Below are positions 13,186-46,034 of a stretch of DNA of 57,695 nucleotides, one piece after another. The notes under the pieces were generated by a model. It saw only the letters and a program-made list of their open reading frames with translations, was not told the origin of the DNA and ran no database searches. This stretch comes from Bacteroidota bacterium. Lineage in GTDB: Bacteria > Bacteroidota > Bacteroidia > Chitinophagales > Chitinophagaceae. The stretch covers positions 1 to 57,695 of the forward strand of contig JAUZOD010000022.1 of NCBI GenBank assembly GCA_030706635.1. The letters run 5' to 3'. How positions within the stretch are numbered: the stretch's first letter is position 1; each line of letters begins with the position of its first letter. Position numbers and translations under genes: made by a program.

Positions 13186-13257
13186 GTTGACGGTTGACGG
13201 TTGACCGACTTCAGTTGCGGATTCGCACATAAAGTCGGTCAACCGTCAACCGTCAAC
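13186..13257. repeat. Family B inverted repeat with perfect 26-base arms, downstream of atpA
   Basis: Arms 13186-13211 and 13232-13257 are exact reverse complements over 26 bases, made of GTTGACG units. The 20-base loop contains TGCGGATTCGCA, itself nearly palindromic. It is the main structure in the 321-base gap between atpA and the T9SS cargo-like gene. The rest of the gap (12956-13185) shows no gene or clear promoter to me. Confidence 0.95.
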
Positions 13258-13276
13258 AAGAAATTCCAAGTAATTC

Positions 13277-14854
13277 CTACTTATACTGCGGAATCAGTTC
13301 ATTAGCCAAAGCCACCGTTTTGCGCACGGCATCATCCGGCAGGTTGCCTTTTTTGAATTCAGCCAGTATTTCGGGTAATTTATTTTCCATTTCCATCAGG
13401 AAATGCTCTTCAAATGCCTTTATACTTTTCACCGGAACTTCGCGAAGCAGACCCTGTGTACCCAGGTAGATGATGGCTACCTGTTTTTCCACGGCAACTG
13501 GCGAATATTGTGGCTGCTTCAGGATCTCCACATTACGGGCGCCTTTATCCAGTACGAGTTTAGTTGACGCATCCAGATCACCTCCGAATTTCGAGAAGGC
13601 TTCCATTTCCCGGTAAAGGGCCTGGTCGAGCTTCAGCGTACCGGAAACCTTCTTCATGGATTTGATCTGCGCATTGCCACCCACACGGCTAACCGATATA
13701 CCCACGTTGATGGCCGGACGAATACCGGAGTTGAACAGGTTACCTTCCAGGAAAATCTGACCGTCAGTAATGGAGATCACGTTCGTCGGAATATAAGCAG
13801 AAACGTCACCGGCCTGGGTTTCAATAATGGGCAATGCGGTAAGCGATCCACCTCCCTTCACCAGACTTTTCAGGGATTCGGGCAGGTCATTCATATTTTT
13901 AGCAACGGAATCGTCACTGATTATCTTCGCGGCCCTTTCGAGCAGACGGCTATGCAGATAAAATACGTCTCCGGGATAAGCTTCACGTCCGGGTGGCCGG
14001 CGAAGCAGCAGGGAAACTTCACGGTAAGCAACAGCCTGTTTGGAAAGATCATCGTAGATGATCAGGGCCGGACGACCGGTATCACGAAAGAACTCACCAA
14101 TCGCTGCACCCGCAAATGGAGCGTAGAACTGCAAAGGAGCGGGTTCCGATGCCGAAGCGGCAACAATCACCGTATATTCCATCGCACCATGATCCGTCAG
14201 TGTTTTCATGATGCCTGCAATCGTGGACGCTTTTTGCCCGATGGCGACATATATACAAAATACAGGCTTGCCTGCTTTGTGAAATTCTTTTTGATTGATG
14301 ATGGTGTCAACGGCAATGGCTGTTTTTCCCGTCTGCCGGTCACCGATGATCAGTTCCCGCTGTCCGCGTCCGATTGGAATCATGGCATCAATCGCTTTGA
14401 TACCAGTCTGGAGCGGTTCTTTTACCGGCTCGCGGAAAATAACTCCCGGCGCTTTGCGCTCAAGCGGCATTTCATGCCTACTGCCAGTGATCGGTCCCTT
14501 TCCGTCTATCGGTATCCCCAGCGTATTCACCACCCTTCCCAGCATACCCTCACCGACCTGGATGGAGGCAATTTTCCCGGTGCGGCGCACTTTGGCGCCT
14601 TCCTTAATATCGCCGCTTTCTCCCATCAGTACCACGCCCACGTTATCTTCTTCCAGGTTGAGCGCAATGGCCCTGACCCCATTTTCAAATTCCACAAGCT
14701 CCCCGCTGCTTACATTATTGAGACCGTATACTCTGGCGATACCATCCCCCACCTGGAGCACAGTTCCTACTTCCTCCATGTCGGCCGACACATTGAAGTT
14801 GCTCAGCTGCTGGCGGAGTATCGCTGATATTTCATCTGGTTTTATTTCTGGCAT
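13277..14854 (-). CDS. atpA: F-type ATP synthase subunit alpha
   Basis: AtpA is the non-catalytic nucleotide-binding subunit of the F1 hexamer. The 525-residue protein has an N-terminal beta-barrel ([25 protein letters not shown]), the P-loop GDRQTGKTA near residue 171, and the alpha signature [14 protein letters not shown]. It is the last gene of the atpB-E-F-H-A cluster, 30 bases after atpH. In related genomes atpG normally follows directly; here a family B repeat and an unrelated gene follow instead. Beta and epsilon subunits are not in the window, which is usual for Bacteroidota, where atpD/atpC are encoded elsewhere. Confidence 0.98.
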
Positions 14855-14884
14855 AAAATCTTTTTAAAATGATGGCTGTTTTAT

Positions 14885-15448
14885 CTAACGTATTTTATAA
14901 ATAAAGTCGTTGTTTTCAAATTGCTTTCTGATCACGTTCAGATCGTACAATATACTGGCGTCAATCAGGCGGCCATCCACCTCAATAATAAATCCGCCGA
15001 TGATATCCGGGTTGACAATGGTTTTCAGTTCCGTATTTTCCCAATGCGCTGTTTCACCGAGTTTCCTTACGATGGCCGATTTTACTTCTTCGCCGGGCAT
15101 AACCGCGGTGGTCAATGTTACAATGTGTATTCCCTTATAGTCCTTGTACTGCTTAATAAAAGCCGCAACGATTTCGGGGAGATGGATTTCCCTTCCTTTC
15201 CGTACCAACAGCCGGTTAAACGAACTGCTGATAATACCTAACCTGTCTTTCGTAAGTGCGTTCAGGATCTTTTCCTTTTTATCTCCTTTGATTACCGGAC
15301 TCCTAAGCACCCGCACCAATTCCGGACTGGCCTGCGTCAGCTCCTGCATATACAGCATATCCTGATAAACGGGTTCGAGCTGATCTCTTTCTATGGCCAG
15401 GTCCAACAACGACTTTGCATAACGGACAGCCAGACGGGGATTGGGCAT
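14885..15448 (-). CDS. atpH: F-type ATP synthase subunit delta
   Basis: AtpH connects the peripheral stalk to the top of F1. The 187-residue product begins NPRLAVRYAKSLLDLAIERDQ, the usual start of delta/OSCP proteins. It ends with the conserved NPDIIGGFIIEVDGRLIDASI segment. Its position between atpF and atpA supports the call. The spacer to atpF, 109 bases, is unusually long for this operon and is filled by a family C inverted repeat. Confidence 0.96.
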   Translation of the reverse strand: MPNPRLAVRYAKSLLDLAIERDQLEPVYQDMLYMQELTQASPELVRVLRSPVIKGDKKEKILNALTKDRLGIISSSFNRLLVRKGREIHLPEIVAAFIKQYKDYKGIHIVTLTTAVMPGEEVKSAIVRKLGETAHWENTELKTIVNPDIIGGFIIEVDGRLIDASILYDLNVIRKQFENNDFIYKIR

Positions 15449-15459
15449 TTGTTTAATTT

Positions 15460-15557
15460 CAAAATGTGGAAATATGTAAATGTGGAAACGAAGGAACTTG
15501 AAAATAGTTTAGATACTGAATTAAAAGAATTTTCACATCAGCACATTTACACATTGG
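15460..15557. repeat. Family C inverted repeat inside the atp operon
   Basis: The left arm AATGTGGAAATATGTAAATG (15462-15481) and right arm CACATCAGCACATTTACACATT (15534-15555) are imperfect reverse complements around an AT-rich loop. The element fills the atpF-atpH spacer and ends directly at the atpF stop codon (15558). Confidence 0.85.
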
Positions 15558-16052
15558 TTAATTCAGCTTCACCTCAGCAGCAAGCTTCCTTATATAACTT
15601 TCCTGTTCCGGCTTGTTCTCCAGCTGACGACGCAGTATTTTTTCTGATACGTCTATCACCAGGCTGCCGATTTGATTCTTAACTTCCGTGAGCGCAGCCA
15701 TTTTTTGCTGCTCAATGGCAGCCTGTGCATCCGTAATGATTTTACCGGCTTCTATTTTCGCCTGGTCCCGGGCTTCATTGATGATCTTGTCTTTCGTATC
15801 CCGCGCTTCTTTCAGCATCTGCGCCCTTTCTTCCCGGGCCTTAGCCAGGAGCGCTTCATTTTCACTTTTCATCTGTGCCATTTCCGCCTTTACCCTCTCG
15901 GCTGTTGCCAGAGAGTCAGAAATGGTTTTTTCCCGGTCATTGAGGGATTGGAGAATGGGTTTCCAGGCAAATTTCTTTAATACCAGAACCACAATCACAA
16001 ACGCCAGCAGCGTCCAGAAAATGAGACCGAAGGAAGGAATTAAAAGATCCAT
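15558..16052 (-). CDS. atpF: F-type ATP synthase subunit b
   Basis: AtpF forms the peripheral stalk. The 164-residue protein has one N-terminal membrane helix (LIPSFGLIFWTLLAFVIVVLVLKKF, about residues 3-27). A long charged coiled coil rich in Ala, Lys and Glu follows (ERVKAEMAQMKSENEALLAKAREERAQMLKEA), then a C-terminal delta-binding part (IGSLVIDVSEKILRRQL). Only one b-type gene is present, so the stalk is presumably a homodimer. It lies 83 bases after atpE. Confidence 0.97.
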   Translation of the reverse strand: MDLLIPSFGLIFWTLLAFVIVVLVLKKFAWKPILQSLNDREKTISDSLATAERVKAEMAQMKSENEALLAKAREERAQMLKEARDTKDKIINEARDQAKIEAGKIITDAQAAIEQQKMAALTEVKNQIGSLVIDVSEKILRRQLENKPEQESYIRKLAAEVKLN

Positions 16053-16135
16053 GAAAATAGTTTTATATAAAGTGTTTTCTTTTCAAAATATACTGCATCC
16101 TCCGTCCTGTACTTCGGATGCAGTATGCATTCGTT

Positions 16136-17532
<1,397 letters not shown>

Positions 17533-17551
17533 GCGGTATCCAAATTTGCCG

Positions 17552-17581
17552 CAAAGATAAGGGAGGAGGGGGAATTTGCAA
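17552..17581 (-). promoter_or_regulatory. Promoter of the atp operon, TTG-N19-TATCTTTG
   Basis: On the minus strand TTG (17581-17579) is followed after 19 bases by TATCTTTG (17559-17552) and then C. Both elements and spacing match the Bacteroidota consensus. The expected transcription start is near 17545, giving a leader of only about 13 bases to the atpB ATG. Confidence 0.8.
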
Positions 17582-17623
17582 GAAGGATTTGAGGTTTTAT
17601 TGCAGAAAGTGAAGGGTTTTTTT

Positions 17624-17709
17624 GTTGACGGTTGACCGTTGATGGTTGACGGTGTTTAGTTGCAAATCGGCACCTGATCTTGGTCAACCATCAACGGTCA
17701 ACCGCCAAC
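17624..17709. repeat. Family B inverted repeat upstream of atpB
   Basis: Arms 17624-17650 and 17683-17709 are reverse complements over 27 bases with one mismatch. The core TTTAGTTGCAAATCGGCACCTGAT matches the cores of the other family B copies. The element ends 3 bases from the ABC transporter stop codon and lies just upstream of the atp promoter. Confidence 0.93.
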
Positions 17710-17712
17710 GTT

Positions 17713-19509
17713 TTAAGCGAATTGCATCTGATGCAGCTTAAAATAAAATCCCTGTTTTTCCATCAGTTCATCATGGTTGCCTATTTCTTTGATCTCTCCC
17801 TTGTCCAGCACCAGAATTTTGCTGGCCTTTCGGATGGTGGACAGGCGATGGGCGATAACGATGGAAGTCCGGTCCGAAATGAGTTTTCCGATAGCATCCT
17901 GTATCAACCGTTCGGAGCCCGTGTCAACAGAAGAAGTCGCCTCATCCAGGATGAGAATCGACGGATCGAATAGCAGGGCCCGGATAAACGACAATAACTG
18001 CCGTTGCCCGAGGGATAGCGTACTTCCCCTTTCCATTACATTAAAATCATATCCGCCGGGAAGTTCCATGATAAAATCATGCATCCCGATGAGTTTCGCA
18101 GCCTGCACCACCCGCTCAAAGGGAATTTCCTGATTGCGAAGGGTGATATTCTCCAGGATCGATCCGGAAAAAAGAAATACATCCTGTAAAACGACGCCTA
18201 TGGAAGATCGCAGCGTGTCCAGTTTATAGCTTTCGATGGGGCGGTCATCCACGAGGATCTGACCCTTCTGAATGGCGTACAGCCGGTTGAGTATGCTGAT
18301 GATTGAGGTCTTTCCGCTGCCGGTGTGACCTACAATGGCCAGGGTTTCACCGGACTGCACCTGAAATGAGATGTTCTTCAGCACATAACGATCATCGGTA
18401 TAGGCAAAATAAACGTGGTCGAATTCAATCTTCCCCCGAAGTCTGGCCGGTGCATTGGTCCCTTCCGACACGATCCGGTCTTCATTATCCAATACCTTAA
18501 ATACCCGTTCACTGGCGACCATGCCCATCTGCAGGGTGTTGAACTTATCCGCAATCACCCGCAATGGCCGGAACAATAAATTCAGGTATAAAAAGAAAAC
18601 AATAATTTCCCCTGAAAGGTCTTTTGCCTTCTCCGGCGGAAGGTCCAAAACCAATCCGGCCCCCCACCATACCAATAACCCGGTGGACACAGCCAGCACA
18701 ATTTCCACGATGGGGAAAAACACGGAATAGGCGAAAATGGCTTTGATATTGGCATTCCGGTGTTCCGAGTTAATCTTCCGGAACCGTTTGTATTCCTGGT
18801 CCTCGGCAGCAAATGCCTGCACCACCTGCATCCCGGTAATGTGTTCCTGTACAAAGGCATTCAAAGCGGCTACGGCATTACGTACCCGAATAAAGGATTT
18901 ATTCACCGCTTCCTTAAAAACATAGGTGGCCAGGATCAAAAACGGAAAAGGGATCAGACAGATTAGCGTCAACTGCCAGTTGCCCCAGAACATAAACAGC
19001 AGCACCGAAATAATGGTCAGCAGATCCGATACAATAGGAATCAATCCTTCGGAGAATATGTCGTTGATGGCTTCAATATCATTAATCGTGCGGGTGGTCA
19101 GCGTACCGATCGGTGTTTTGTCGAATTGCGAAAGGTTCAATCCCAGTATCTTTTTATACACGGATACCCGCAGGTCTTTCACAACCGTCTGACCCAGCCA
19201 GGAAGTAAGAAAAGAAAAGAAAAAACGGAACGCTGTTTCTATAAGCAGTAGTCCGATCTGCAGGATAGTGATGTAGGTGATCATCTCAATCATCCTCTCT
19301 CTAACCGAAAGATCGCCCGTAATCCCCGCGCGGATATAATGATTAACCGTGTACTGGATCAGGTAGGGTCGTAATGGGGAAAGGATCGCCAGCAGAATGG
19401 ATAAAACGACCGACCCGTACAACCATTTTTTATATGGAGTAGCATAGTGCAAAATCCTGCGCAGCAGGCTGAAATCGAAAATTTTCCTTTTTGGAATCGC
19501 GTCGGGCAT
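17713..19509 (-). CDS. ABC exporter (MsbA-like, membrane and ATPase domains fused)
   Basis: The protein has six membrane helices in the first 320 residues (ABC type 1 exporter fold), then one ATPase domain with Walker A GHTGSGKTS, signature LSLGQ, Walker B ILILDEATS and the H-loop IAHRLST. It probably acts as a dimer exporting lipid, peptide or drug; the substrate is not readable. I start at the ATG at 19509 (598 residues). A TTG at 19536 would overlap the stop of the preceding gene and add nine residues. The 23-base distance to the secreted caspase-like gene suggests coexpression. Confidence 0.93.
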   Translation of the reverse strand: MPDAIPKRKIFDFSLLRRILHYATPYKKWLYGSVVLSILLAILSPLRPYLIQYTVNHYIRAGITGDLSVRERMIEMITYITILQIGLLLIETAFRFFFSFLTSWLGQTVVKDLRVSVYKKILGLNLSQFDKTPIGTLTTRTINDIEAINDIFSEGLIPIVSDLLTIISVLLFMFWGNWQLTLICLIPFPFLILATYVFKEAVNKSFIRVRNAVAALNAFVQEHITGMQVVQAFAAEDQEYKRFRKINSEHRNANIKAIFAYSVFFPIVEIVLAVSTGLLVWWGAGLVLDLPPEKAKDLSGEIIVFFLYLNLLFRPLRVIADKFNTLQMGMVASERVFKVLDNEDRIVSEGTNAPARLRGKIEFDHVYFAYTDDRYVLKNISFQVQSGETLAIVGHTGSGKTSIISILNRLYAIQKGQILVDDRPIESYKLDTLRSSIGVVLQDVFLFSGSILENITLRNQEIPFERVVQAAKLIGMHDFIMELPGGYDFNVMERGSTLSLGQRQLLSFIRALLFDPSILILDEATSSVDTGSERLIQDAIGKLISDRTSIVIAHRLSTIRKASKILVLDKGEIKEIGNHDELMEKQGFYFKLHQMQFA

Positions 19510-19532
19510 CGCGCAAAGTTGCGAAGTTTTAC

Positions 19533-21752
19533 TCAATCTTCTTCGCCCATCGCTTTCCGGTACGCCTTAATGAAGATGGCACCAAGATTTTTGTACGGAG
19601 GAATGTAATCATCAAAGCGTTCACGGGCCACAGGATCCTTCCGGAATTTTTCGGTCAATTCCTTCCACATCGGAAGCCAGTCAATATTATTTCCCCCCAG
19701 CAAATCATCGTTGATGGCTTGCAATATGGGTTCGTTCACTGACTTTGTTCCCACCTGCTTTGATGAAATGATGTGCGCATCGCTGCTGATGTTCAGCACC
19801 TCGCTCAGGTTATTATATCCGCCACAGGAACCCAGCACCACAATTTTCGCCGAAGGCTGAATTTGTTGTAGGGTGTACCGGACATGATAACTGTGACCGC
19901 GGTGTATGTAGATAGTGGGCTTTAATTTATTATCATACAGATAATCGTCCAGATGATGTTGTGCCTTATCATCCGGATCGTCCTCACCGAAAAGCGGCCG
20001 GTTAGCAAAGATCCAGATTGGTTTGCCCTTTACAGATTGAATGGTTACCCACTCCTTCGTGGGGTTCATCGTAATTTTCCATTCCGGCTTGTGCAGGAAT
20101 AGCCTGAGGAAATCATCGTAGGAATGTTGACCGTCCTTATCCTCATCCCCATAAAAGAATACCTGCTGAATAACACGCCCGCTGTCATCTTTTAAAGAAT
20201 CATAACTGATGCTGTAAACAGGGGCTATACCCAGTTTGGCAGAGAGGTCTTCCTGGTTGGTCGTATCCGCGGATTCAAACAGGGCTTCCATCAGGTGATA
20301 GATCACTATCCCCCGCTTGTCGTTATTGAGCAAGTTCCGTTTGTAATTCCATTTTACCTCATTCAGCACAAAGGCAGCCAGCGGTGGGTTTTTATCGAAA
20401 ATACTGCTATAGGAATCTGCGACATCCACGGCATCTTCCTCATTGGCCCTTTCCAGTCCGATGATGAATGCTTTCATGATGGTAGCGGCATTGTCCTTAT
20501 CCATGGTAGCGAGAAAATGATCCAGTTTATTATACGCCGCTGCCATCTTGATGAACTTCCTGAAATAATCCCCGTGCATCTGTAAAATCAGGCTGTCACC
20601 CCGCGGAACCTGCATACGCTGGAAAATGCGGTCATACACACCCAGGTAACTGGACGTGTAAATTTCATCTTCACTGAGTACCACCAGATAATACAATTCT
20701 GCCGGGCTGAGCTGGTCCAGGATTTTAAACCGCACAGAAGCCGGTTTATCATGCAGTGCATTAATTTCCCTGACAAACACATCTTTCCCCTTGTTTTCCA
20801 GCATCGTCGTCAGCGCTTCCATTTCCAATGCGGTATCATATAACGGAGGCAACATACGATCCACATAATTCAGCCTGGTCTTCACCAGGAGGCGATAATA
20901 GTTCAGGTTATCGTCTTTAACATTATTGATCTCGGTGATGGTAATGCGGTGATGAATCAGATCATCCAGAAAAGGCAGATAAAGTTGCCCGCTGCGGCTG
21001 GCGGCAATCTTTGCCACCATGATGGTCAGGGAGTCGGTGCTGTTGCGGATACGCGAGGATAATGCGGTATTGCCTGAAGCATAGTCATATAGCTTTCGGA
21101 TATTGTGCCTGCCTCCGATAATGATAAGGCTGTCGGCGTTCGGAAGGCTGGGATTGCTGCTGAGAATCGTAAAAATCTGATCGGGATGCAATTCGCAATA
21201 TTTGCTGATCAGCACGTTACGGGAATTTTTCACGCCCACATTTTCTGTCGGCAGCAGAAAACAGTCCACCAGGATTTTACCTATCCCATAGATGTTAGCT
21301 GCAATAACGGGTTCGATGCTTTTATTGGCCCGGTCCAGTTCCATAGCCCGGGTGAAAGCTTCAAAGAGAGCAGGCGCCATGGATGACGGGAAATCCCGCT
21401 GCCGGTAATGGTTATTAAAACCCTTCAGCATGGTTTCGAGCGAACGCAGGTTTTTAATTTTCATCTGCCCGTTCAGGGTGGAATCCAGCTCGATCTTCTC
21501 CTGAAGTTCGTCCACCTGCCGGATCATCGCATCCGCCACCTGCAGGTTAACATTTTCGTCTTTCGATACCTGAATAATGCTGTCGGCCTTGCCATCGAGT
21601 GCCAGCAACCGCTTCTGCTCCCGGTCGATATTGTCGTGCCACAGTTTTCGCTCTTGCTGAATCTTAAAGGGAGGACGGGCCATCTGGGCCTGAACCATCA
21701 GGGCGGGAAGGAGAAAAAATGAGAAAATGGAGAACCGGATGATCTTTTTCAT
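19533..21752 (-). CDS. Large secreted protein with C-terminal caspase-like His/Cys signature
   Basis: The roughly 739-residue protein has a signal peptide (MKKIIRFSIFSFFLLPALMVQAQ), so I start at the ATG at 21752 and not at the GTG at 21764. Residues about 25-500 are helical with no family I recognise. Near 535-548 is an EF-hand-like loop DEDKDGQHSYDDF. After it comes a strand-helix-strand unit IYIHRGHSYHV...KIVVLGSCGGY (about residues 614-643), whose Gly-His and Gly-Ser-Cys-Gly match the dyad layout of clan CD peptidases such as caspases and gingipains, though His and Cys are only 23 residues apart. Peptidase activity is inference. It precedes an ABC exporter by 23 bases. Confidence 0.6.
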   Translation of the reverse strand: MKKIIRFSIFSFFLLPALMVQAQMARPPFKIQQERKLWHDNIDREQKRLLALDGKADSIIQVSKDENVNLQVADAMIRQVDELQEKIELDSTLNGQMKIKNLRSLETMLKGFNNHYRQRDFPSSMAPALFEAFTRAMELDRANKSIEPVIAANIYGIGKILVDCFLLPTENVGVKNSRNVLISKYCELHPDQIFTILSSNPSLPNADSLIIIGGRHNIRKLYDYASGNTALSSRIRNSTDSLTIMVAKIAASRSGQLYLPFLDDLIHHRITITEINNVKDDNLNYYRLLVKTRLNYVDRMLPPLYDTALEMEALTTMLENKGKDVFVREINALHDKPASVRFKILDQLSPAELYYLVVLSEDEIYTSSYLGVYDRIFQRMQVPRGDSLILQMHGDYFRKFIKMAAAYNKLDHFLATMDKDNAATIMKAFIIGLERANEEDAVDVADSYSSIFDKNPPLAAFVLNEVKWNYKRNLLNNDKRGIVIYHLMEALFESADTTNQEDLSAKLGIAPVYSISYDSLKDDSGRVIQQVFFYGDEDKDGQHSYDDFLRLFLHKPEWKITMNPTKEWVTIQSVKGKPIWIFANRPLFGEDDPDDKAQHHLDDYLYDNKLKPTIYIHRGHSYHVRYTLQQIQPSAKIVVLGSCGGYNNLSEVLNISSDAHIISSKQVGTKSVNEPILQAINDDLLGGNNIDWLPMWKELTEKFRKDPVARERFDDYIPPYKNLGAIFIKAYRKAMGEED

Positions 21753-21778
21753 AATTAAGGCCACTGAACAGGGACAAA

Positions 21779-26295: not shown

Positions 26296-26307
26296 GCAAA
26301 TGGGGAA

Positions 26308-26455
26308 TAATGTGGAAATGTGCTGATGTGGAAATGTGAAAATTACTTATTGTGGAACTACAGTTAACCTATCAATATAATTTACCCATTTTGACCTGCC
26401 CGCATGGCAGCATTTACACATCAGCACATTTACACATCAGCACATTTACATATTA
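26308..26455. repeat. Family C inverted repeat between DUF47 and PiT genes
   Basis: The left arm (26308-26343) has AATGTGGAAATGTGCTGATGTGG units, mirrored by CATTTACACATCAGCACATTTACACATC units in the right arm (26411-26455). The loop of about 67 bases is AT-rich and unlike those of other copies. The element separates two genes that are normally tightly linked. Confidence 0.88.
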
Positions 26456-26477
26456 CTCCCATTAGCTAACGTAACGC

Positions 26478-27518
26478 ATGACATTCCTGGTAATCATCAT
26501 CATCCTTGCGCTCATTTTCGATTTTATCAATGGCTTTCATGATGCCGCAAACTCCATAGCCACCATTGTTTCCACCAAAGTGCTGACGCCTTTTCAGGCA
26601 GTGCTGTGGGCTGCCATGTTCAATTTTATCGCTTTCTTTATTTCGAAATACGTGATCGGGGAATTTAAGATAGGGAATACGATTGCCACTTCGGTGCATA
26701 AGGAATTCATTACCCTGGAAGTAATCTTCTCCGGACTGATCGGCGCCATTGCGTGGAACCTGCTTACCTGGTGGTTTGGCATTCCTTCCAGCTCCTCACA
26801 TACCCTGATTGGCGGTTTTATCGGCGCCGCACTGGCGCATGCCGGAGCCATAAGCAAACATGGACTCGACGTGATCAACTACGCAAAAGTAGTCCCGACC
26901 TTTCTTTTCATTTTTCTGGCGCCCATCATCGGGATGATCATTGCCCTTATCATCACCATTCTCATCGTCAATATCTGCCGCCGCGCAAATCCTTACCGTG
27001 CAGACAAATGGTTCCGGCGACTTCAGCTGGTATCTTCAGCCTTACTCAGCCTGGCCCATGGCGGTAATGACGCGCAAAAAGTAATGGGTATCATCGGGGC
27101 TGCCATGATCTTCTACCAGCACGGAAAGGGCATAGACATCAGTTTCGGGCAATTTGTAGATCATAATATGTGGGTCCCGCTGGCCAGTTTTAGTGCCATC
27201 GCCCTGGGAACACTCAGTGGTGGCTGGAAAATTGTGAAAACCATGGGAACCCGCATCACCAAGGTGACTCCGCTGGAAGGAGTAAGTGCCGAAACTGCCG
27301 GAGCAATCACCCTTTTCATCACGGAAAAACTCGGAATCCCGGTCAGCACCACCCATACCATCGCAGGATCCATCATCGGGGTGGGCGCCACCAAGAGGCT
27401 TTCCGCCGTGCGCTGGGGAGTAACAATCAACCTGCTCTGGGCCTGGATCCTGACCATTCCCGTCAGTGCAGCCTTCTCCGCCATCGTTTACTATGTTCTC
27501 ATTTTAGTTCTAAAATAA
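26478..27518 (+). CDS. Inorganic phosphate transporter, PiT family
   Basis: The 346-residue membrane protein carries both PiT signature repeats: DFINGFHDAANSIATIVST near the N-terminus and LAHGGNDAQKVMGIIGA in the second half. About ten hydrophobic helices are seen. The conserved SSSHTLIGG and STTHTIAGS segments follow each repeat, as expected for an inverted duplication. It imports phosphate with a cation, at low affinity. The preceding DUF47 gene is its usual partner. Confidence 0.95.
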   Translation: MTFLVIIIILALIFDFINGFHDAANSIATIVSTKVLTPFQAVLWAAMFNFIAFFISKYVIGEFKIGNTIATSVHKEFITLEVIFSGLIGAIAWNLLTWWFGIPSSSSHTLIGGFIGAALAHAGAISKHGLDVINYAKVVPTFLFIFLAPIIGMIIALIITILIVNICRRANPYRADKWFRRLQLVSSALLSLAHGGNDAQKVMGIIGAAMIFYQHGKGIDISFGQFVDHNMWVPLASFSAIALGTLSGGWKIVKTMGTRITKVTPLEGVSAETAGAITLFITEKLGIPVSTTHTIAGSIIGVGATKRLSAVRWGVTINLLWAWILTIPVSAAFSAIVYYVLILVLK

Positions 27519-27533: not shown

Positions 27534-27612
27534 GTTGACGGGTGACCGCTGGCCGATCTTAAGTGCGAATTCGCACCTGATTACCGTCAACGGTCAACCG
27601 TCAACCGTCAAC
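27534..27612. repeat. Family B repeat with perfect 14-base palindrome core
   Basis: The right arm (27585-27612) is a clean run of CGTCAAC units. The left arm (27534-27555) has diverged. The core contains GTGCGAATTCGCAC (27563-27576), a perfect 14-base palindrome, followed by CTGATT. The element lies between the PiT stop and the rmlA start. Confidence 0.9.
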
Positions 27613-33880: not shown

Positions 33881-34002
33881 CAATGTGCTAATATGGAAAT
33901 GTGCTGATGTGAAAATAAAAGAACCTTGCCCGGGTATCTCTTGTTTCATCAACACATTAGTTCTCCAATTTTCACATCAGCACTTTTTCACATTTCCACA
34001 TT
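33881..34002. repeat. Family C inverted repeat between convergent genes
   Basis: Left arm AATGTGCTAATATGGAAATGT and on to 33916; right arm 33967-34002 with TTCACATCAGCAC and CACATTTCCACATT units. The right arm overlaps the last 15 bases of the hydrolase gene, so its C-terminal residues NVEM and stop codon are repeat sequence. Confidence 0.85.
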
Positions 34003-34731: not shown

Positions 34732-34755
34732 GCCGTAAAAGTAGGAAGGCAGATG

Positions 34756-34884
34756 GATAATTTGAGAATTTGATGATTTGAAAATTTGAAGATGAAAAGC
34801 AATGAAAAATGATCCTCAAATCAATAATGCTGACAGACGCAAAGCATTCTCAAATTTTCAAATCATCAAATTCTCAAATTATCC
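34756..34884. repeat. Family A inverted repeat between rodA and hydrolase gene
   Basis: Arms 34756-34793 and 34847-34884 are almost perfect reverse complements over about 35 bases, built of TTTGAGAA/TTTGATGA/TTTGAAAA units. The loop is about 53 bases. The right arm ends within two bases of the rodA stop codon. Confidence 0.93.
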
Positions 34885-38646: not shown

Positions 38647-38667
38647 CTCAGGATATGGAATTATGAA

Positions 38668-39201
38668 TTAAACAGTGTTCGTCCTGAATTTCTCTTTCCG
38701 GAAGAATAAAAGCTCCGTGAGCAATATCAACAACAGACTGATACCCGTTGTTGCGGTTACTTTCCCTATAAAATACAAAAAAGATCCGAAACTCAGCCAT
38801 TCCAGGAAAACAAGATACCCATGATGAAACAGCGTAAGTATAAACACGTAGGTTCCATACGGCGCCCAGCCCATGCTTGTGATGGAAGGTGACAGATAAT
38901 TTTTATCGGCGCCTTCCTGCGAAATGAGCATATTAACGATGAATGGCCGCAGGTAGGCTATCAGTACACAGGCCGCAGCGTGCAATCCAGGGGTATGCAT
39001 GAAATAATCCAGGCTCAGCCCAAAAAAGAAGGCTACGCTCATCAATCCCGCGCGGGACATACTGAAGGGCAGCCATAAGATGTAGAGGTAATATAAATAG
39101 GGTGTGATAAACCGGTGCAATGGAGGCATCTTGAACAGGATGAAGACCTGCACAAAGATGAAAAGCACAAAGCGGATAATATTTTTCAGCAGTTCGCTCA
39201 T
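38668..39201 (-). CDS. mreD: Rod-shape determining protein MreD
   Basis: The 177-residue protein is almost entirely hydrophobic with five to six membrane helices (FVLFIFVQVFILFKM, PFSMSRAGLMSVAFFFGLSLDYFMHTPGLHAAACVLIAY and others). The segment GLSLDYFMHTPGLHA, with Asp in the membrane, is typical of MreD. Sequence conservation in this family is low, so position between mreC and mrdA supports the call strongly. Its ATG overlaps the mreC stop by one base (TAATG). Confidence 0.9.
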   Translation of the reverse strand: MSELLKNIIRFVLFIFVQVFILFKMPPLHRFITPYLYYLYILWLPFSMSRAGLMSVAFFFGLSLDYFMHTPGLHAAACVLIAYLRPFIVNMLISQEGADKNYLSPSITSMGWAPYGTYVFILTLFHHGYLVFLEWLSFGSFLYFIGKVTATTGISLLLILLTELLFFRKEKFRTNTV

Positions 39202-40052: not shown

Positions 40053-40092
40053 AGGTGCTATGATTTATAATAATATAACAGCATGATCAGAA

Positions 40093-41118
40093 CTACCGCA
40101 TAACAAAAGGGTACCTGTCGTAGTTTTTCAAAGAGATCCCTGTTCCCCTGACAACGCTTTTTAAAGGATCATCGGCAATATGCACAGGAAGTTTGATTTT
40201 CTGGCTGAGCCGTTTATCCAGTCCCCTGAGCAGGGCACCTCCGCCGGTCAGGTACAGGCCGCGCCGGTAGATGTCTCCGGCAAGTTCAGGAGGTGTGGTT
40301 TCCAGGGCTTTCAGGATGGCTTCTTCTATCTTGAAAATGCTTTTGTCCAATGCTTCGGCAATTTCCTGGTAACTCACCAGGATCTGCTTGGGAATACCGG
40401 TCACCAGGTCACGGCCGTTTACGGGAATATCATCCGGTGGGTTGTCCAGATCTTTTAATGCGGCGCCAATCTGGATCTTGATCTGCTCGGCCGTTCTCTC
40501 CCCGATCAGTAAGCTGTGATAGCGCCGCAGTGCTTCCATGATGTCTGCCGTAAATTCGTCTCCGGCAATCCGGATGGACTGGTCACAAACGATGCCGGCC
40601 AGGGCGATCACCGTAATGCCGGTGGTTCCCCCTCCGATATCAATGATCATATTACCCACGGGCTCTTCCACGTCTATGCCAATCCCCAGGGCAGCCGCCA
40701 TGGGTTCATGAATAAGGTATACTTCTTTGGCTCCGGCCTGTTCGGCGCTGTCCCGCACCGCTCTTTTTTCCACTTCGGTAATGCTGGAAGGAATACAGAT
40801 CATCATGCGCCAGCTGGGCGGAAATAAGGGTTTCTTGGGATAGATCATCTTGATCATTTCCCTGATCATCAACTCAGCGGCATTGAAATCGGCAATAACC
40901 CCGTCTTTCAGGGGCCGGACCGTCCGGATGCTTTCATGCGTCTTTTCATGCATCATCAGGGCCCTCTTTCCGACAGCAAGCACAGTTTTCGGATTATTGC
41001 GGTCCAGGGCAACTATACTTGGTTCGTTTACGACGATCTCGTCATTGTGAATGATCAGGGTGTTGGCGGTCCCCAGATCCATGGCAATCTCTTGCGTCAG
41101 GAAATTGAATAATCCCAT
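40093..41118 (-). CDS. mreB: Rod-shape determining actin homologue MreB
   Basis: The 341-residue protein shows the actin-fold nucleotide motifs: AMDLGTANTLI (phosphate 1), MIDIGGGTTGITVIAL (phosphate 2) and LTGGGALLRGLDKRL (adenosine). MreB filaments position the cell-wall elongation machinery. The gene leads mreB-C-D-mrdA-rodA, a complete rod-shape cluster, so the cell is expected to be rod-shaped. The upstream 150-base gap holds no recognisable promoter box. Confidence 0.97.
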   Translation of the reverse strand: MGLFNFLTQEIAMDLGTANTLIIHNDEIVVNEPSIVALDRNNPKTVLAVGKRALMMHEKTHESIRTVRPLKDGVIADFNAAELMIREMIKMIYPKKPLFPPSWRMMICIPSSITEVEKRAVRDSAEQAGAKEVYLIHEPMAAALGIGIDVEEPVGNMIIDIGGGTTGITVIALAGIVCDQSIRIAGDEFTADIMEALRRYHSLLIGERTAEQIKIQIGAALKDLDNPPDDIPVNGRDLVTGIPKQILVSYQEIAEALDKSIFKIEEAILKALETTPPELAGDIYRRGLYLTGGGALLRGLDKRLSQKIKLPVHIADDPLKSVVRGTGISLKNYDRYPFVMR

Positions 41119-41268
41119 TTTAAAAGGTCAGATTTAGATTCTGTTACGATGCATGCAAAATTGATGGAAATAATCCGAATTAACAAAGTGAACATCCCTG
41201 ATTTATAATATCGTGGATATCCTGCACTGAACGCAATTTTCACACGGATATTTCCTTAAAACTGATCT

Positions 41269-42264
41269 TTATTCTGAAGAAAAACCCAATCGTCTTTCCA
41301 TTTTTCTGTCCAGCTTTGGTAATTTTTTTCTTTCAATCAGAAAACTGGTGAGCTGCGCAATCTCATGAAAAATAAAATGCTTCTCCAGCGTTCCCTGAAG
41401 ATAGCTGCGACCTGTGCTGCCACCCGTTCCTATGCGCGTACCGATGGTCCGGTGAACCATATGCATGTGCCGGTAACGCCAGGTACTCAGTTGTTCGTCA
41501 ATTTCCAGAAGTTGGTTGAGCAATTGGAAAGGTAACTGCAATATGGGATATCCCTGATAAATCATGATAAAGAGACCCGCCCGGCATGCCGCGGCAGAAA
41601 GTGAGCGTCCCGGAGCCCCGTTTTCTTCGGAAAATACGGTATCGAACAAAACAGCATGCCCTTTTTCCACTTCAGAAAGACTTTCCCGGTAAAGCTTCCG
41701 GTATCCAGGCCAAAAATCATTGTCTTTCAAAAAGGGCATCCGCTCCAGCCATCCGTTGAGCAGCTCCAGCAGGGTCTTTTCCGATTCTGCAGTTTTGATC
41801 AGGCTCACTTCGGTTTCGCGTAACTGAGAGATATAATGCGCCTGCCCGTGTCTTTGCTCAAATTTCAAACCCAGCTTGGCTTCCAGCAGTTTGAACTGCC
41901 AGCTTTGAAAACCCGACGCCGGACGAAGCGTATCCCGGAAATCCAGGAAATCCATAGGCGACATGGTTTCCATCACTTCTATTTGCTGCACCAGCAATTT
42001 CAAAATCGTATGGATCCGATGCAGCCGGTGCACAATAATCTGAAGTTCGGGAGAATCATCGTTGAGAGAAGGCTTTTGAAGGATTGCTTTCACAGAGTCC
42101 ACCTCATACAGGAGTTGTTTGAACCACAATTCATAGGTCTGGTGAATAACGATAAAAAGCATTTCATCATGCGCGTGCGCCTGTAGTTGGTCGCTGCGGA
42201 GTTCCTGAGCCTTCAGGATCAGATCCAGTTTAAGATAATCGGCATAATGAAGCGCAGGTTCCAT
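41269..42264 (-). CDS. kynA: Tryptophan 2,3-dioxygenase
   Basis: This haem enzyme opens the indole ring of tryptophan to N-formylkynurenine, the first step of the kynurenine pathway. The 331-residue protein has the highly conserved HDEMLFIVIHQTYELWFKQLL near residue 32. The haem-binding and substrate region is RYRHMHMVHRTIGTRIGTGGSTGRSYL. It is somewhat longer than the classical bacterial enzyme. Other kynurenine pathway genes are not in the window. purD lies 38 bases upstream on the same strand. Confidence 0.94.
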   Translation of the reverse strand: MEPALHYADYLKLDLILKAQELRSDQLQAHAHDEMLFIVIHQTYELWFKQLLYEVDSVKAILQKPSLNDDSPELQIIVHRLHRIHTILKLLVQQIEVMETMSPMDFLDFRDTLRPASGFQSWQFKLLEAKLGLKFEQRHGQAHYISQLRETEVSLIKTAESEKTLLELLNGWLERMPFLKDNDFWPGYRKLYRESLSEVEKGHAVLFDTVFSEENGAPGRSLSAAACRAGLFIMIYQGYPILQLPFQLLNQLLEIDEQLSTWRYRHMHMVHRTIGTRIGTGGSTGRSYLQGTLEKHFIFHEIAQLTSFLIERKKLPKLDRKMERRLGFSSE

Positions 42265-42302
42265 CGGTATAAAGTTAAGCGGTATCCGGGCTAATCCGGC
42301 CG

Positions 42303-43580
42303 CTACAAAAATTCATATCCGATATCCCGCCGGTAATACATGCCTTCAAAATCGATGTGATGAAGCACCCCGATGGATTTGCGGATGGCCTCCGGAAGCG
42401 TCTCCGCATAAGAGGTCACACACAATACGCGGCCACCCTGGGTAAGCACTTTCCCCTGTTCTATCCGCGTTCCGGAATGAAAGATCAAACTGTCTTTTGT
42501 TTTATAATCCAGGCCGGAAATGGTATGCCCTTTTTCGTAGCTCCCCGGATAACCTCCACTCACAACCACCATAGTGGCCACTGCACGGGGATCTATATCC
42601 ATCTGTATGGTATCCAGCTTCCTTTCGGCAACCGCCCTGAACAATGCCAGCAGGTCATTCTTTAAACGCGGAAGCACCACTTCCGTTTCCGGATCGCCCA
42701 TACGACAATTATATTCAATCACCTCCGGTTCCCCGTTCACCTTAATGAGTCCGATAAAAATAAAACCGCGGTAATCAATCCCCTCTTCTCTTAACCCGCG
42801 AATGCTGGGCTCGATGATCCTGTCTGTGACTTTCTTCATGAAAGCTTTGTCAGCAAAGGGCACCGGACTCACCGCCCCCATGCCGCCCGTATTCGGCCCC
42901 TTGTCGCCCTCCCCGATCTTCTTATAGTCCTTGGCCTCGGGTAAAAGCACATAGTGATCACCGTCAGTGAGCAAAAAAATGGAGACTTCGATGCCGTCCA
43001 GGAACTCCTCCACCACAATCCTTTTACCGGCTTCCCCGAACTTGTTCTGCTGCAACATCAGTTCAAATTCAGCCATGGCTTCCACATGACTATTGCAAAT
43101 GATCACACCCTTGCCCGCTGCCAGCCCGTCGGCTTTCAATACAATGGGCAGACTGTGCGCTTTCAGATAGTCGGATCCTTCCGTATAATTCTCTGCGTCA
43201 AACTCCCGGTAACCCGCGGTGGGAATTTGGTATTTTTGCATGAACCGCTTGGAAAAGGCCTTACTGCCTTCGAGTTGGGCACCCTGCGCAGTAGGCCCGA
43301 TCACCATGATTTCCGAGAGTTCAGGATCGGCGGTAAAGAAATCAACGATTCCCAATACCAGCGGCTCTTCCGGGCCAACCACCAGCATGTCGATCTGATT
43401 TTCGACGCAGGCCTTTTTAACTGCCGGAAAATCGGTCGGGATCAGTTCAATATTGGTTCCGAAAGCAGCGGTGCCCGCATTACCCGGAGCAATGAACAAC
43501 CCGGAACAATCCGGGCTCTGGGAAATTTTCCAGGCAAATGCATGCTCCCGTCCGCCGCCGCCTAATATTAAAATATTCAT
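42303..43580 (-). CDS. purD: Phosphoribosylamine-glycine ligase
   Basis: PurD makes glycinamide ribonucleotide, the second step of purine synthesis, in an ATP-grasp reaction. The 425-residue protein begins with the typical NILILGGGGREHAFAWKI, followed by LFIAPGNAGTA, VVGPEEPLVLGIVDFF, and the ATP-grasp SLPIVLKADGLAAGKGVIIC. The signature FRMGDPETEVV is seen here as YNCRMGDPETEVVLPRL. Full length. Confidence 0.97.
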   Translation of the reverse strand: MNILILGGGGREHAFAWKISQSPDCSGLFIAPGNAGTAAFGTNIELIPTDFPAVKKACVENQIDMLVVGPEEPLVLGIVDFFTADPELSEIMVIGPTAQGAQLEGSKAFSKRFMQKYQIPTAGYREFDAENYTEGSDYLKAHSLPIVLKADGLAAGKGVIICNSHVEAMAEFELMLQQNKFGEAGKRIVVEEFLDGIEVSIFLLTDGDHYVLLPEAKDYKKIGEGDKGPNTGGMGAVSPVPFADKAFMKKVTDRIIEPSIRGLREEGIDYRGFIFIGLIKVNGEPEVIEYNCRMGDPETEVVLPRLKNDLLALFRAVAERKLDTIQMDIDPRAVATMVVVSGGYPGSYEKGHTISGLDYKTKDSLIFHSGTRIEQGKVLTQGGRVLCVTSYAETLPEAIRKSIGVLHHIDFEGMYYRRDIGYEFL

Positions 43581-43740
43581 TTTCAGAGTGGATTAGGCCC
43601 GAAATTCCCGATTCATTACCACATCTGAAAAAATAATTTTTAAGCATGCCCCGAATGCATCCCGCTGTGGGTTGTATAAATAAATCTTACTTTAGGTTCA
43701 GCATTGTAAATTCATCCCAAACTCGAAACACATCAGTTTT

Positions 43741-45405
43741 ATGAATACAGCGTTACCGCAAAAAGGACATCCCCGGGGTTTGTACGTATTGTTTTTTACC
43801 GAAATGTGGGAACGGTTCGGCTATTACCTGATGGTCGGCATCCTGTTTTTATTTTTGCATGATACGGTAAACAACGGCGGAAGGGGCCTGGACACCGGGC
43901 TGGCTGCGGATATCGTTGGAACCTACATTGCCCTGGTGTATCTGACGCCTTTTATCGGGGGACTGATCGCGGACCGCTATATCGGATACCGGGTTTCCGT
44001 TTTTCTGGGCGGCTCCCTGATGGCCCTGGGTTATTTCCTGATGTCCGTGCCACACAGCGGTGTCCTGTTGTATGCCGCCCTGGGCAGCGTGATTATCGGA
44101 AACGGATTTTTCAAACCCAACATCAGCACCCTGCTGGGGAATATTTATAATAAAGAAGAATTAAAACCCAAGAAAGACATCGCCTATAATATTTTTTACA
44201 TGGGCATTAATATTGGCGCCCTGGTCTGCAATTTCGTGGCGGCCTTCCTGCGCATCAATTATTCCTGGGGTTACGCCTTTGCCGCCGCAGGTTTTGGCAT
44301 GGTCATCTCCCTGATCTTTTTTGCCTCCGGCCAGAAATATGTAAAACATGCCGATGTAATTAAGCCCGTGCAGAAAGAAGATATGCCTTTGTCAAAAATT
44401 GTTTCTTATGTGTTCCTGCCGGCCATTGCAGCGGGCATCATCGGCTGGTTTATTCCCGGAAATCTTATGGGTTCCGATTCCAATGACGCGTTTATTTTTG
44501 CCTGCATCCCCATCATCATATTTTACTTCAATATCTGGCGGCGCTGCGACAAACCCGACCGCCGTCGCATCGGTGCCTTATTCACACTCTTCGGCGTCTC
44601 CATTATTTTCTGGAACATCTATAATCAAAATGCCACTTCCCTCACCATCTGGGCAGACAACTATACCAAACGCGAAGCACCAGCAGCGATTGAAAAAATC
44701 ATCAAGCCTTTTGGTTTTCTCCAGACCGTGAACACGAAAGAGAAAGAGGTACCGGTGCTGGATGAACACTTCCATGCAAAAACAGGAGCCAAAGGAAATG
44801 TGGTCACCCACATCGGCACGGATCCATACCTGCAGAATATTCCGAAAGGCGAGTGGCCTGCACCCGGTGAAGATCTCAAACTCATTTCAACGGAAATCTA
44901 TCAATCCATAAATCCATTCTGGATCATCGTGCTCACCCCGATCATCGTCGGCTTGTTCGGATTCCTGAAAGCCAGGAACAGGGAACTCAGCACACCCGGA
45001 AAATTTGCCTGGGGAACCATCATCGCCGGATTGTCTTCAGTGGTTATGGTTATTGCGGCCTTGTCCACCAACATCTATGAGCACAAAGTGTCCTCAGCCT
45101 GGATCATCGGCAGCTATGGCGTCTTCACCATCAGCGAACTTTTTGTTAGCCCGGTGGGCCTCTCCCTGGTGTCCAAGGTCTCCCCCCGTCGTTTCACCGC
45201 GCTGATGATGGGTGGATGGTTCATCACCACCTCCCTCGGAGCAAAAATTGCGGGCATCATGGCAGGCTTCTGGGATAATTTCGACAGCAAGGCCCTGTTC
45301 TTCGGCATCAGCGCCACCGCAGCGATCGTTGCCGGCCTGCTGCTCTTTCCACTGACAAAAAAATTGAACAAAATAGTTTTGGAAGCGACGGCGGCGGATG
45401 AGTGA
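43741..45405 (+). CDS. Proton-dependent oligopeptide transporter (POT/PTR2 family)
   Basis: The 554-residue membrane protein has the POT proton-coupling motif ExxERFxYY as FFTEMWERFGYYLMVG at helix 1. The family signature GNGFFKPNISTLLGNIY and the C-terminal SPVGLSLVSKVSPRRF are also present. About twelve to fourteen helices are seen. An extended loop at about residues 300-385 (NYTKREAPAAIEKII...GTDPYLQNIPKGEWPAPGED) is typical of Bacteroidota members. It imports di- or tripeptides with protons. It stands alone and converges on apaG across a family A repeat. Confidence 0.95.
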   Translation: MNTALPQKGHPRGLYVLFFTEMWERFGYYLMVGILFLFLHDTVNNGGRGLDTGLAADIVGTYIALVYLTPFIGGLIADRYIGYRVSVFLGGSLMALGYFLMSVPHSGVLLYAALGSVIIGNGFFKPNISTLLGNIYNKEELKPKKDIAYNIFYMGINIGALVCNFVAAFLRINYSWGYAFAAAGFGMVISLIFFASGQKYVKHADVIKPVQKEDMPLSKIVSYVFLPAIAAGIIGWFIPGNLMGSDSNDAFIFACIPIIIFYFNIWRRCDKPDRRRIGALFTLFGVSIIFWNIYNQNATSLTIWADNYTKREAPAAIEKIIKPFGFLQTVNTKEKEVPVLDEHFHAKTGAKGNVVTHIGTDPYLQNIPKGEWPAPGEDLKLISTEIYQSINPFWIIVLTPIIVGLFGFLKARNRELSTPGKFAWGTIIAGLSSVVMVIAALSTNIYEHKVSSAWIIGSYGVFTISELFVSPVGLSLVSKVSPRRFTALMMGGWFITTSLGAKIAGIMAGFWDNFDSKALFFGISATAAIVAGLLLFPLTKKLNKIVLEATAADE

Positions 45406-45412
45406 GGAGAAG

Positions 45413-45517
45413 TAATTTGAAAATGCAAAGATCGGAGAGTCTGATATTTACATAATAAAATCAGGTTGGCCTGCCCTTCATTTTCAAATCTTCAAATTCT
45501 CAAATTTTCAAATTATT
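45413..45517. repeat. Family A repeat between POT transporter and apaG
   Basis: Short left arm AATTTGAAAATG (45415-45426) and a longer right arm (45479-45517) of TTTTCAAAT/CTTCAAAT/TCTCAAAT units. The asymmetric arms suggest loss of part of the left arm. Confidence 0.75.
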
Positions 45518-45518
45518 A

Positions 45519-45905
45519 TCAATTCATCTTAAACGGAACAATCATCTCAAACATCGGAATATTCACCTCGAAGATCTTTTTGGAATTCAGGTTTTCCATA
45601 TTGTAGCTGCCATACATCTTCCCCATTTCGGTACGCAGGTTGCAACCGCTGACATATTGGTATTTCTCTCCCGGCTGAAGGATCGGCTGAACACCCACCA
45701 CGCCTTCTCCCTCCACCTCCCGGTGGGTTCCGTTGCTGTCAAAAATATGCCACTGCCGGCGGTTCAGTTTTACCGGAAAATCATTGTGATTCCAGATGGT
45801 AATGCGGTAGGCAAACATATGTTCACCCGCAACAGGATTGCTGTAGTCGGGCTGATAAAAAGTCTCGACATCAATCTCAACCCCTTCTGAAATTTTGTTC
45901 GCCAT
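45519..45905 (-). CDS. apaG: ApaG (Co2+/Mg2+ efflux-associated, DUF525)
   Basis: The 128-residue beta-sandwich protein matches ApaG/DUF525: VETFYQPDYSNP, FAYRITIWNHNDFPVKLNRRQWHIFDSNG, and VVGVQPILQPGEKYQYVSGCNLRTEMGKMYGSY. In Enterobacteria ApaG is linked to cobalt resistance and diadenosine tetraphosphate metabolism; the precise biochemical role remains unsettled. It is divergent from the isocitrate dehydrogenase gene with a family B repeat in the spacer. Confidence 0.93.
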   Translation of the reverse strand: MANKISEGVEIDVETFYQPDYSNPVAGEHMFAYRITIWNHNDFPVKLNRRQWHIFDSNGTHREVEGEGVVGVQPILQPGEKYQYVSGCNLRTEMGKMYGSYNMENLNSKKIFEVNIPMFEMIVPFKMN

Positions 45906-45946
45906 GGAGTTAATTTACGTAAAATTAAGGAAATGCTTTGAGAAAG

Positions 45947-46034
45947 GGTTGACGGTTGACGGTTGATGGTTGACGGCCTTTAGTTGCGAATCCGCCCCTG
46001 ATATCGGTCAACCGTCAACTGTCAACCGTCAACC
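45947..46034. repeat. Family B inverted repeat between divergent apaG and icd
   Basis: Arms 45947-45974 and 46006-46034 are reverse complements of GTTGACG/GTTGATG units with few mismatches. The core CTTTAGTTGCGAATCCGCCCCTGATAT matches other family B cores. Because it lies between two divergent starts it cannot serve as a terminator of either gene. Confidence 0.92.

Follow-up and report, generated by a model that had tools for sequence, protein, structure and literature searches.

Dispersed gene-end hairpins with arms of seven-base units and a 30-nucleotide core found in both orientations in a Chitinophagaceae genome

The stretch of DNA analysed here, referred to as the window, is the entire 57,695-nt contig JAUZOD010000022.1 (C78) of a Bacteroidota bacterium of the family Chitinophagaceae, whose 4.58-Mb draft genome (GCA_030706635.1; G000) is 99.93% complete. 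Ten flanking genes were scanned in the window and eight match Pfam families, which include those of ATP synthase subunits, of transporters and of isocitrate dehydrogenase; several spacers contain copies of one inverted repeat, family B, in which an arm of 7-base units is followed by a core with a fixed length of 30 nt and by the mirrored arm (Table 1). Four such repeats had been described in a first-pass annotation made from the letters alone; all four were found where it had placed them, but its count was short by a fifth, disrupted copy near 54.4 kb. The 26-base perfect arms of the 13.2-kb copy were confirmed, and GTGCGAATTCGCAC in the 27.5-kb copy is the perfect palindrome it was said to be. 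The loop core shared by the copies is indeed conserved, but its length is not the proposed 25 nt or so: 14 copies align without gaps over 72 columns, as three units, a 30-nt core and three mirrored units, and in one orientation the family core reads approximately GACTTTTATTGCGAATYCGCACCTGAAGTC. Folded as RNA, the four copies gave energies between -37.6 and -59.3 kcal/mol on either strand (z -5.9 to -14.1).

When up to two mismatches are allowed, the window contains GTTGACGGTTGAC 23 times, whereas 100 shuffles contain it 0.83 times on average; the core pattern, with up to three mismatches, occurs at three places against 0.01 expected from shuffles (the 13.2-kb copy has four mismatches to this pattern and hence falls outside the count). 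Over the whole genome GTTGACGGTTGAC was found 156 times (85 + 71); its reversed control gave 0. The search with a covariance model advised in the first-pass annotation was run on the own genome and on relatives (model R2) and found the family in both; the own genome gave at least 149 strand matches at at least 77 distinct places, with 150 of the 1628 candidates scored. The view of family B as a dispersed element is supported by the genome-wide core counts, by these places and by the matches in relatives. Eleven of the first 58 genomes searched matched (own included), all in one of 25 genera, and two of them, G006 and G019, are rich in matches; these two are about 77–80% identical to the window over long aligned parts and 85.4% identical to each other over the fetched loci. 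Of 195 genomes of the bacterial family (own included), 18, drawn from 13 of 101 genera, matched at 1e-6; these matches score lower and cover 55 to 120 nt.

A matrix scan of 60 stretches around copies, of the window and of three earlier loci returned 81 sites with a score above 18 (a small number are weak or offset); 71 of the sites score above 40. On the contigs the core of these 71 points one way in 39 copies and the other way in 32, with a core margin of at least 5 bits in 64. A longer-core subtype was seen at two places (G000:C46:78104-78199 and C108:102179-102277), where GACTTTAGGTG and the CACCT-type ends are kept and extra bases stand in the centre, and the R2 match at G000 C76:27969-28064 spans 96 nt against the usual 72.

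The copies are placed preferentially at the ends of genes. Gene calls were simple longest open reading frames (ORFs), and the 12 of 81 copies inside such a call were set aside; the remaining 69 lie in 37 tandem, 23 convergent and 9 divergent contexts, compared with 29, 12 and 22 for element-free spacers of at least 100 bases in the same stretches (divergent against the rest, Fisher p 0.004). Gene 3' ends are at a median of 6 nt from the hairpin (83 ends) and 5' starts at 41 nt (55 ends; p 9e-13). The 77 copies of G006 and G019 behave alike, with 23 tandem, 24 convergent and 9 divergent contexts (15 copies in ORF calls and six without a neighbour being set aside) and distances of 12 nt to 3' ends against 42 nt to 5' starts (p 4e-7).

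The two arms of one copy fit each other better than they fit the arms of other copies. In the own genome (71 copies) complementarity within copies was 0.863, against 0.807 after permutation (5000 permutations, sd 0.0059, maximum 0.828; z 9.5), and the corresponding values were 0.875 against 0.801 in G006 (51 copies) and 0.908 against 0.837 in G019 (26 copies). The arms of a copy therefore co-vary in all three genomes, which supports the earlier proposal of arms maintained as a hairpin, and columns 7/66 and 9/64 co-change notably in the 71 copies. Selection on the structure is not implied, since template switching can copy arm onto arm, so that arm pairing alone is no proof of a selected structure. 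Pairing within the core was 0.543 against 0.568 permuted in the same 71 copies, and the core is therefore a conserved sequence and not a maintained helix. The dominant units are GTTGAC (266), GATGAC (51) and GTTGAT (41) in the own genome, GTTGAT (157) and GTTGAC (76) in G006, and GTTGAT (81) and GTTGAC (51) in G019; the counts in the relatives were made with a search matrix built on the own copies, and the species difference is seen regardless. Linker columns 21/52 (GG 24, CC 22, CG 13, GC 9) were considered as a record of core flips and dropped, the pattern being absent in G006 and G019.

Comparison of orthologous spacers for presence or absence, also suggested in the first-pass annotation, located, in G006 or G019, the counterparts of 26 family-B spacers, of which 21 are occupied and five (Table 1) are empty of family B, the occupied share being biased upward because the relatives' loci were mostly fetched as copy-bearing. 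Two of the 21 were dropped for their weak own copies, which leaves 19 pairs over 15 sites that are not independent of each other. The comparison of G006 with G019 located 12 spacers, of which 10 were scored (of the other two, one had too little sequence and one no family B). Judged by the core columns only, pairs in which both members have a margin of at least 5 bits show a reversed core in 6 of 12 cases involving the own genome and in 4 of 7 between G006 and G019; without a margin the figures are 9 of 19 and 6 of 10, and with an 8-bit margin on both sides 5 of 8 and 3 of 6. Orientation counts from the whole matrix (7 of 19 and 7 of 10 reversed) depend partly on the arms. The cleanest case is the G006–G019 pair L186/L225, where the flanks match and an odd GTATAT unit is found in both arms of both species. 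The two cores agree at 28 of 30 positions (0.93) when one is inverted, against 20 of 30 (0.67) when it is not, and 0.93 is the top value of 1326 cross pairs, tied with one other pair (mean 0.686, sd 0.086). One unit at this site, GTTGAT in G006, is GTGGAT in both arms of the G019 copy. This pair shows an inversion of the core in place, with the arms kept.

We consider it somewhat probable that family B consists of dispersed gene-end hairpins, resembling repetitive extragenic palindromes (REPs), that are remade by polymerase slippage and template switching. In this scenario the arms would lengthen and shorten by slippage of whole 7-base units, and during replication the nascent strand would switch to the opposite arm, so that one arm is rewritten from the other and the spacer is occasionally inverted. 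Such rewriting would keep the hairpin near-perfect without selection on every base, and hairpins with a variable number of units, mirrored units and flipping spacers would arise because template switching acts together with slippage by 7 or 8 bases. Folded as RNA the hairpins are very stable, and their places are ones at which transcription could stop or a message from upstream could be cut. With less certainty, the hairpin in RNA may mark or protect the 3' end of the upstream message; according to its place it could be a two-way stop at the ends of transcription units or a stability or processing hairpin between genes.

Several observations weigh against this reading. Slippage is deduced from the period of the arms, no event having been seen. 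Between the own genome and G006 or G019, orthologous copies resemble each other in their arms no more than random copies do (0.773 against 0.778 over the 19 pairs), which could mean replacement by new insertions. When the arms were compared one unit outward, most of the pairing was retained (0.849, 0.852 and 0.917 in the three genomes, against 0.901, 0.905 and 0.920 in register), and for bases off the column consensus the values were 0.402, 0.456 and 0.484 in register against 0.317, 0.456 and 0.548 shifted. Part of the agreement within copies is therefore due to the type of unit and not to exact register, as copying and slippage of whole units would lead one to expect. Nine of the 69 copies, that at 45.9 kb among them, are placed between divergent genes. 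The T fraction over 12 nt is 0.316 on the gene-3' side and 0.332 on the other, with no T excess, and the preponderance of G-U over A-C pairs in the own tandem copies (28 against 13, p 0.028) is not repeated in the relatives (15 against 16; pooled 43 against 29, p 0.12). The last point comes from the 3' slot of atpA, for which 79 of 80 named Bacteroidota loci were classed (one reaches only 7 nt behind the gene; an earlier classification, with different limits between the classes, took in all 80) into 45 short hairpins, 37 of them with a T-run of at least 4, 17 unit hairpins, none with such a run, 7 other and 10 without hairpin. An atpG-like start lies 72–153 nt downstream at 14 of the 17 unit-hairpin loci, compared with 3 of the 45 short-hairpin loci.

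These last results bear equally on the idea that the copies are transcription terminators, selected for pairing in RNA and free in sequence as long as a hairpin forms. The position of the copies at 3' ends agrees with it, and so does the end of atpA inspected by eye within the genus, where short GC hairpins (G015, G020, G022, G025, G026) stand against unit hairpins (G000, G006, G014, G017). The copies are nevertheless not textbook intrinsic terminators, since the T-tract is missing after the hairpins, a finding on which this idea was lowered; the copies between divergent genes, the lack of a pooled G-U bias, the unit hairpins that directly precede atpG in Sphingobacteriales and other groups, and a conserved core sequence that a terminator would not need make it very unlikely as the explanation of family B. 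Selection at the RNA level was likewise rejected, as the excess of G-U pairs is nominal in the own tandem copies and disappears when the relatives are pooled with them. The proposal that unit hairpins replace terminators at the atpA slot across the named loci was also given up, as the gene order seen there confounds the comparison, and the argument from this slot is confined to the genus. In their working the hairpins are placed nearer to REPs than to terminators because they have no T-tract and no significant pooled G-U bias and because similar hairpins stand before atpG; a function at the 3' end of RNA is plausible.

Another explanation is a miniature inverted-repeat transposable element (MITE) or REP-like element moved by an enzyme that recognises the core or the arm ends, the orthologous sites being hot spots that are hit repeatedly. 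Repeated insertion at hot spots would account for arms that differ and for a core in either orientation. In favour of this explanation are the presence of one core at about 80 sites, which requires some copying process, the five empty orthologous spacers and the exchange of families at single slots (34.8 kb and 45.4 kb, see below). The own genome, however, gave no match to the Y1 transposase PF01797 or to NF047646, the REP-associated tyrosine transposase (RAYT) family, for which controls were positive in 5 and 6 of 14, respectively. For ten close pairs of copies the longest ORF in between was compared with Pfam: seven match ordinary families, two have no match and one is a NUMOD4-HNH gene, with no partner transposase among them. 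The 13.2-kb copy matched nothing among plasmids and phages, one exact core pattern matched nothing among viral contigs, and no target duplication was clear by eye at five empty sites. Moreover, the odd arm units of L186/L225 are kept while the core is inverted, as a fresh insertion would not do. Taken with the points in its favour, we regard movement by such an enzyme as unlikely. The NUMOD4-HNH endonuclease gene (197 aa) lies at 2000-2787 of L064 (G000:C98), between two oppositely oriented family-B copies; the genome has two more NUMOD4 matches (three in all), both on C13 near 25 kb, about 17 kb from the listed C13 copy.

The first-pass annotation had also suggested that the core is recognised by something. 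The core would then be a binding site for a nucleoid protein, a recombinase or a regulator, presented by the arms as a cruciform and inverted site-specifically. Its constant length, recognisable sequence and nearly palindromic centre are consistent with this, as is its apparently free orientation; over the 19 orthologous pairs core identity is 0.682 against 0.659 for random pairs (272 of 5000 permutations as high), not clearly above random, as expected if a consensus is held. No protein was identified, however; the 8-nt families of the window have the same architecture without a common core, and in some copies, including that at 54.4 kb, the centre of the core is replaced by other sequence. 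The analysis did not bear recognition out; the core is conserved in sequence and found in both orientations at orthologous sites. A binding site is the least probable of the explanations weighed here.

The slots behind genes are also occupied by hairpins of other families. In the window these have arms of 8-nt units (Table 1), and AATGTGCT, AATTTGAA and the complementary 8-base units also build arms, either inverted or single, at 1-70, 3643-3807 and 15471-15555, with loops that are not common to them. At two slots (34.8 kb and 45.4 kb) the whole family changes between the own genome and the relatives. By eye, the atpA slot at 13.2 kb holds family B with GTTGAT-type units in G006, a GAGTGGC/GAGTAGT-unit hairpin in G014, a TTATTGA-unit hairpin in G017 and, elsewhere, the short GC hairpins mentioned above; the 17.6-kb slot holds an ATTATGG array in G019 and a GCGTTAA array in G017; and the 27.5-kb slot holds a CGTAAAG-type array in G005, an AGTC-type array in G020 and none in G006, G025 and G026. 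Behind atpA in L285-L317, from many Sphingobacteriales, Saprospiraceae and one Hymenobacter, an inverted 7/8-base array takes up almost the whole spacer to the following gene, which is atpG in most cases, and its unit sequence differs between many species. To the left of the 13.2-kb hairpin, positions 12960-13160 are noncoding and conserved in several members of the genus, with ATTGGAA-like and GATTGCAAGCG-like motifs (L115 is 73% identical over 12973-13156). It is a possible unknown RNA or regulatory region; Rfam gave two matches over 12900-13300, both far below the gathering score.

Table 1. Hairpin features of the window and orthologous spacers empty of family B.
Feature	Position	Core orientation	Remarks
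Copy 1, left arm, three 7-nt units	13186..13206		
Copy 1, core, 30 nt	13207..13236	-	reverse fit to consensus GACTTTTATTGCGAATYCGCACCTGAAGTC slightly better, margin 4.6 bits
Copy 1, right arm	13237..13257		19 nt from stop end of atpA (13277-14854, -)
Copy 2, left arm, four units incl. GTTGATG	17624..17651		
Copy 2, core, 30 nt	17652..17681	+	
Copy 2, right arm, mirror of left	17682..17709		3 nt from end of ABC transporter gene (17713-19536, -)
Copy 3, left arm, degenerate units	27534..27554		15 nt after phosphate transporter gene 26478-27518 (+)
Copy 3, core, 30 nt	27555..27584	+	contains perfect palindrome 27563-27576
Copy 3, right arm, four units	27585..27612		
Copy 4, left arm, four units	45947..45975		pairing extends to 45940
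Copy 4, core, 30 nt	45976..46005	+	G006 forward like G000; G019 reversed at this site
Copy 4, right arm	46006..46034		between divergent genes, ApaG and isocitrate dehydrogenase families
Copy 5, disrupted family B	54385..54491		GTTGATA/GTTGATG arms, GACTT...AAGTC ends, centre is other sequence
8-nt AATGTGGA/AATGTGCT-type units	26303..26460		same architecture; 86-nt loop
8-nt AATGTGCT-type inverted arms	33882..34002		same architecture
8-nt AATTTGAA units	34755..34884		same architecture; orthologous site in G006 is family B
AATTTGAA-type arms	45414..45517		same architecture; between convergent genes; orthologous site in G006 and G019 is family B
8-nt AATGTGCT-type units	47525..47615		same architecture
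8-nt AATGTGCT-type units	50015..50129		same architecture
Empty orthologous spacer	C35:63420		in G006 and G019
Empty orthologous spacer	C35:75811		in G006
Empty orthologous spacer	C78:27534		in G006
Empty orthologous spacer	C97:111344		in G019

In the relatives sampled, hairpin arms with a strong periodicity have a repeat length of 7 or 8 bases in nearly all cases. In a genus set made up of the window, the orthologous loci and samples of about 20 kb from eleven genomes, 19 of 38 hairpins had an arm self-match of at least 0.7, with a period of 7 in ten, 14 in four and 8 in five. The 80 named Bacteroidota loci (572,059 bases) contained 24 long-armed hairpins, of which ten passed (period 7 in seven, period 8 in three), while shuffled arms passed the periodicity test in 0.04%. 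Samples of 70 genomes, which partly overlap the genus set, gave at a self-match of 0.65 period 7 eleven times, 8 four times and 9 once. In 20 further stretches from genomes with SbcD one hairpin of period 8 was found, together with two copies of one arm of period 12, which does not follow the rule. Among longer simple repeats, heptamers are reportedly the commonest class in most bacterial genomes, for which Mrazek et al. 2007 offered an explanation by slippage (as cited in PMC4679880 and PMC4692102). A broader proposal, more tentative and in our estimate holding with less than even chance, is that hairpins at gene ends form a general, self-renewing class in Bacteroidota, in which the slot behind a gene persists over long evolutionary times and its content is rewritten by slippage of 7 or 8 bases, by template switching and occasionally by a new family.

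SbcD is part of a nuclease that removes hairpins in Escherichia coli (PMC3733652). None was found in the own genome with TIGR00619; 13 of 77 related genomes score above the cut-off, and some match at E 0.001 exists in 35 of the 77. Without G000, 13 hairpins were counted in 581,458 bases with SbcD against 44 in 994,627 bases lacking it (p 0.028), and hairpins of 7/8-base units numbered one against nine (p 0.10). Covariance-model positives were 2 of 28 genomes with SbcD against 11 of 49 others (p 0.12, two model thresholds being mixed), and hairpin density over genomes gave p 0.084; all four comparisons are uncorrected for kinship. G105 has SbcD, a unit hairpin and model matches together. Loss of SbcD may favour self-renewing hairpins, the evidence being weak.

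Compensatory change in a helix is usually taken as proof of selection on RNA. Family B has dozens of copies per genome, arms that change together, no pooled RNA-strand signature and at least one inversion of the spacer in place, and it is thus a test bed for separating pairing made by mutation from pairing that is selected; covariation alone would have labelled it a structured RNA, which calls for caution. It may be a natural record of how the copying of DNA makes and renews hairpins. If the self-renewing class is real, the 7/8-base rule would report a physical property of the replication machinery, and if the rule holds widely, the preference of bacterial slippage for heptamers is directly testable.

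Small inversions are known from hairpin loops of plastid intergenic spacers, where the loop flips between inverted arms at single loci; to our knowledge these lack tandem-unit arms. The whole window gave no Rfam match at the gathering score, and searches of open-licence papers found no description of the family or of tandem-unit arms combined with a fixed core and spacer inversion in bacteria, so that the statement of the first-pass annotation that no named family fits stands within these sources. The available part of PMC4060949 contains nothing on family B. The nearest printed relative found is the GGGAATC heptamer repeat of Xanthomonas (PMC4692102), an intergenic repeat of 7-nt units at a mean of 28 nt behind the upstream ORF, with 7–8% between divergent ORFs and with 70 and 75 cases of two inverted arrays; its gene neighbours are constant, and its length and sequence vary extensively between species. 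Family B belongs to the same heptamer class, with 7-nt units, an intergenic position 3' of ORFs and inverted pairs. The Xanthomonas repeats differ in being G-rich and studied as quadruplexes, and a spacer of fixed length, a test of arm co-variation and spacer inversion are absent from the passages seen (PMC4692102). The TAACTGA heptamers (PMC4679880), intergenic tandem repeats that also occur in five Bacteroidetes, are direct and, in the main genome studied, lie mostly just upstream of start codons, whereas family B is inverted.

REPs, including the bacterial interspersed mosaic elements (BIMEs) and the CGTC REPs, are dispersed palindromes that lie downstream of coding regions and for the most part have tandem or convergent ORFs on their two sides; a dedicated transposase is lacking for the CGTC REPs, which occur in Bacteroidetes among others (PMC3733652). 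Family B likewise consists of dispersed palindromes behind genes, mostly in tandem or convergent contexts. However, REP stems are of 5–13 bp (8–9 bp in CGTC REPs, which have loops of 4–5 nt, a tag and a short tail; PMC3733652), whereas the arms of family B are heptamer arrays of at least 20 bp around a 30-nt spacer. The GTAG at the feet of the arms that marks RAYT-associated REPs is absent from the consensus of the 71 copies, and no RAYT or Y1 gene was found in the own genome. The stem, loop, unpaired tag and CCA-like tail of CGTC REPs were not seen either, the CGTC of family B lying inside the paired unit CGTCAAC. Template switching at inverted repeats homogenises arms and inverts spacers in coding genes of yeast (PMC8604942) and creates and repairs RNA stems in RNA genes (PMC8794818). 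Both signatures, arms made alike and an inverted spacer, are present in family B, but these papers deal with yeast and RNA genes and not with the life cycle of a dispersed family of bacterial hairpins (PMC8604942, PMC8794818).

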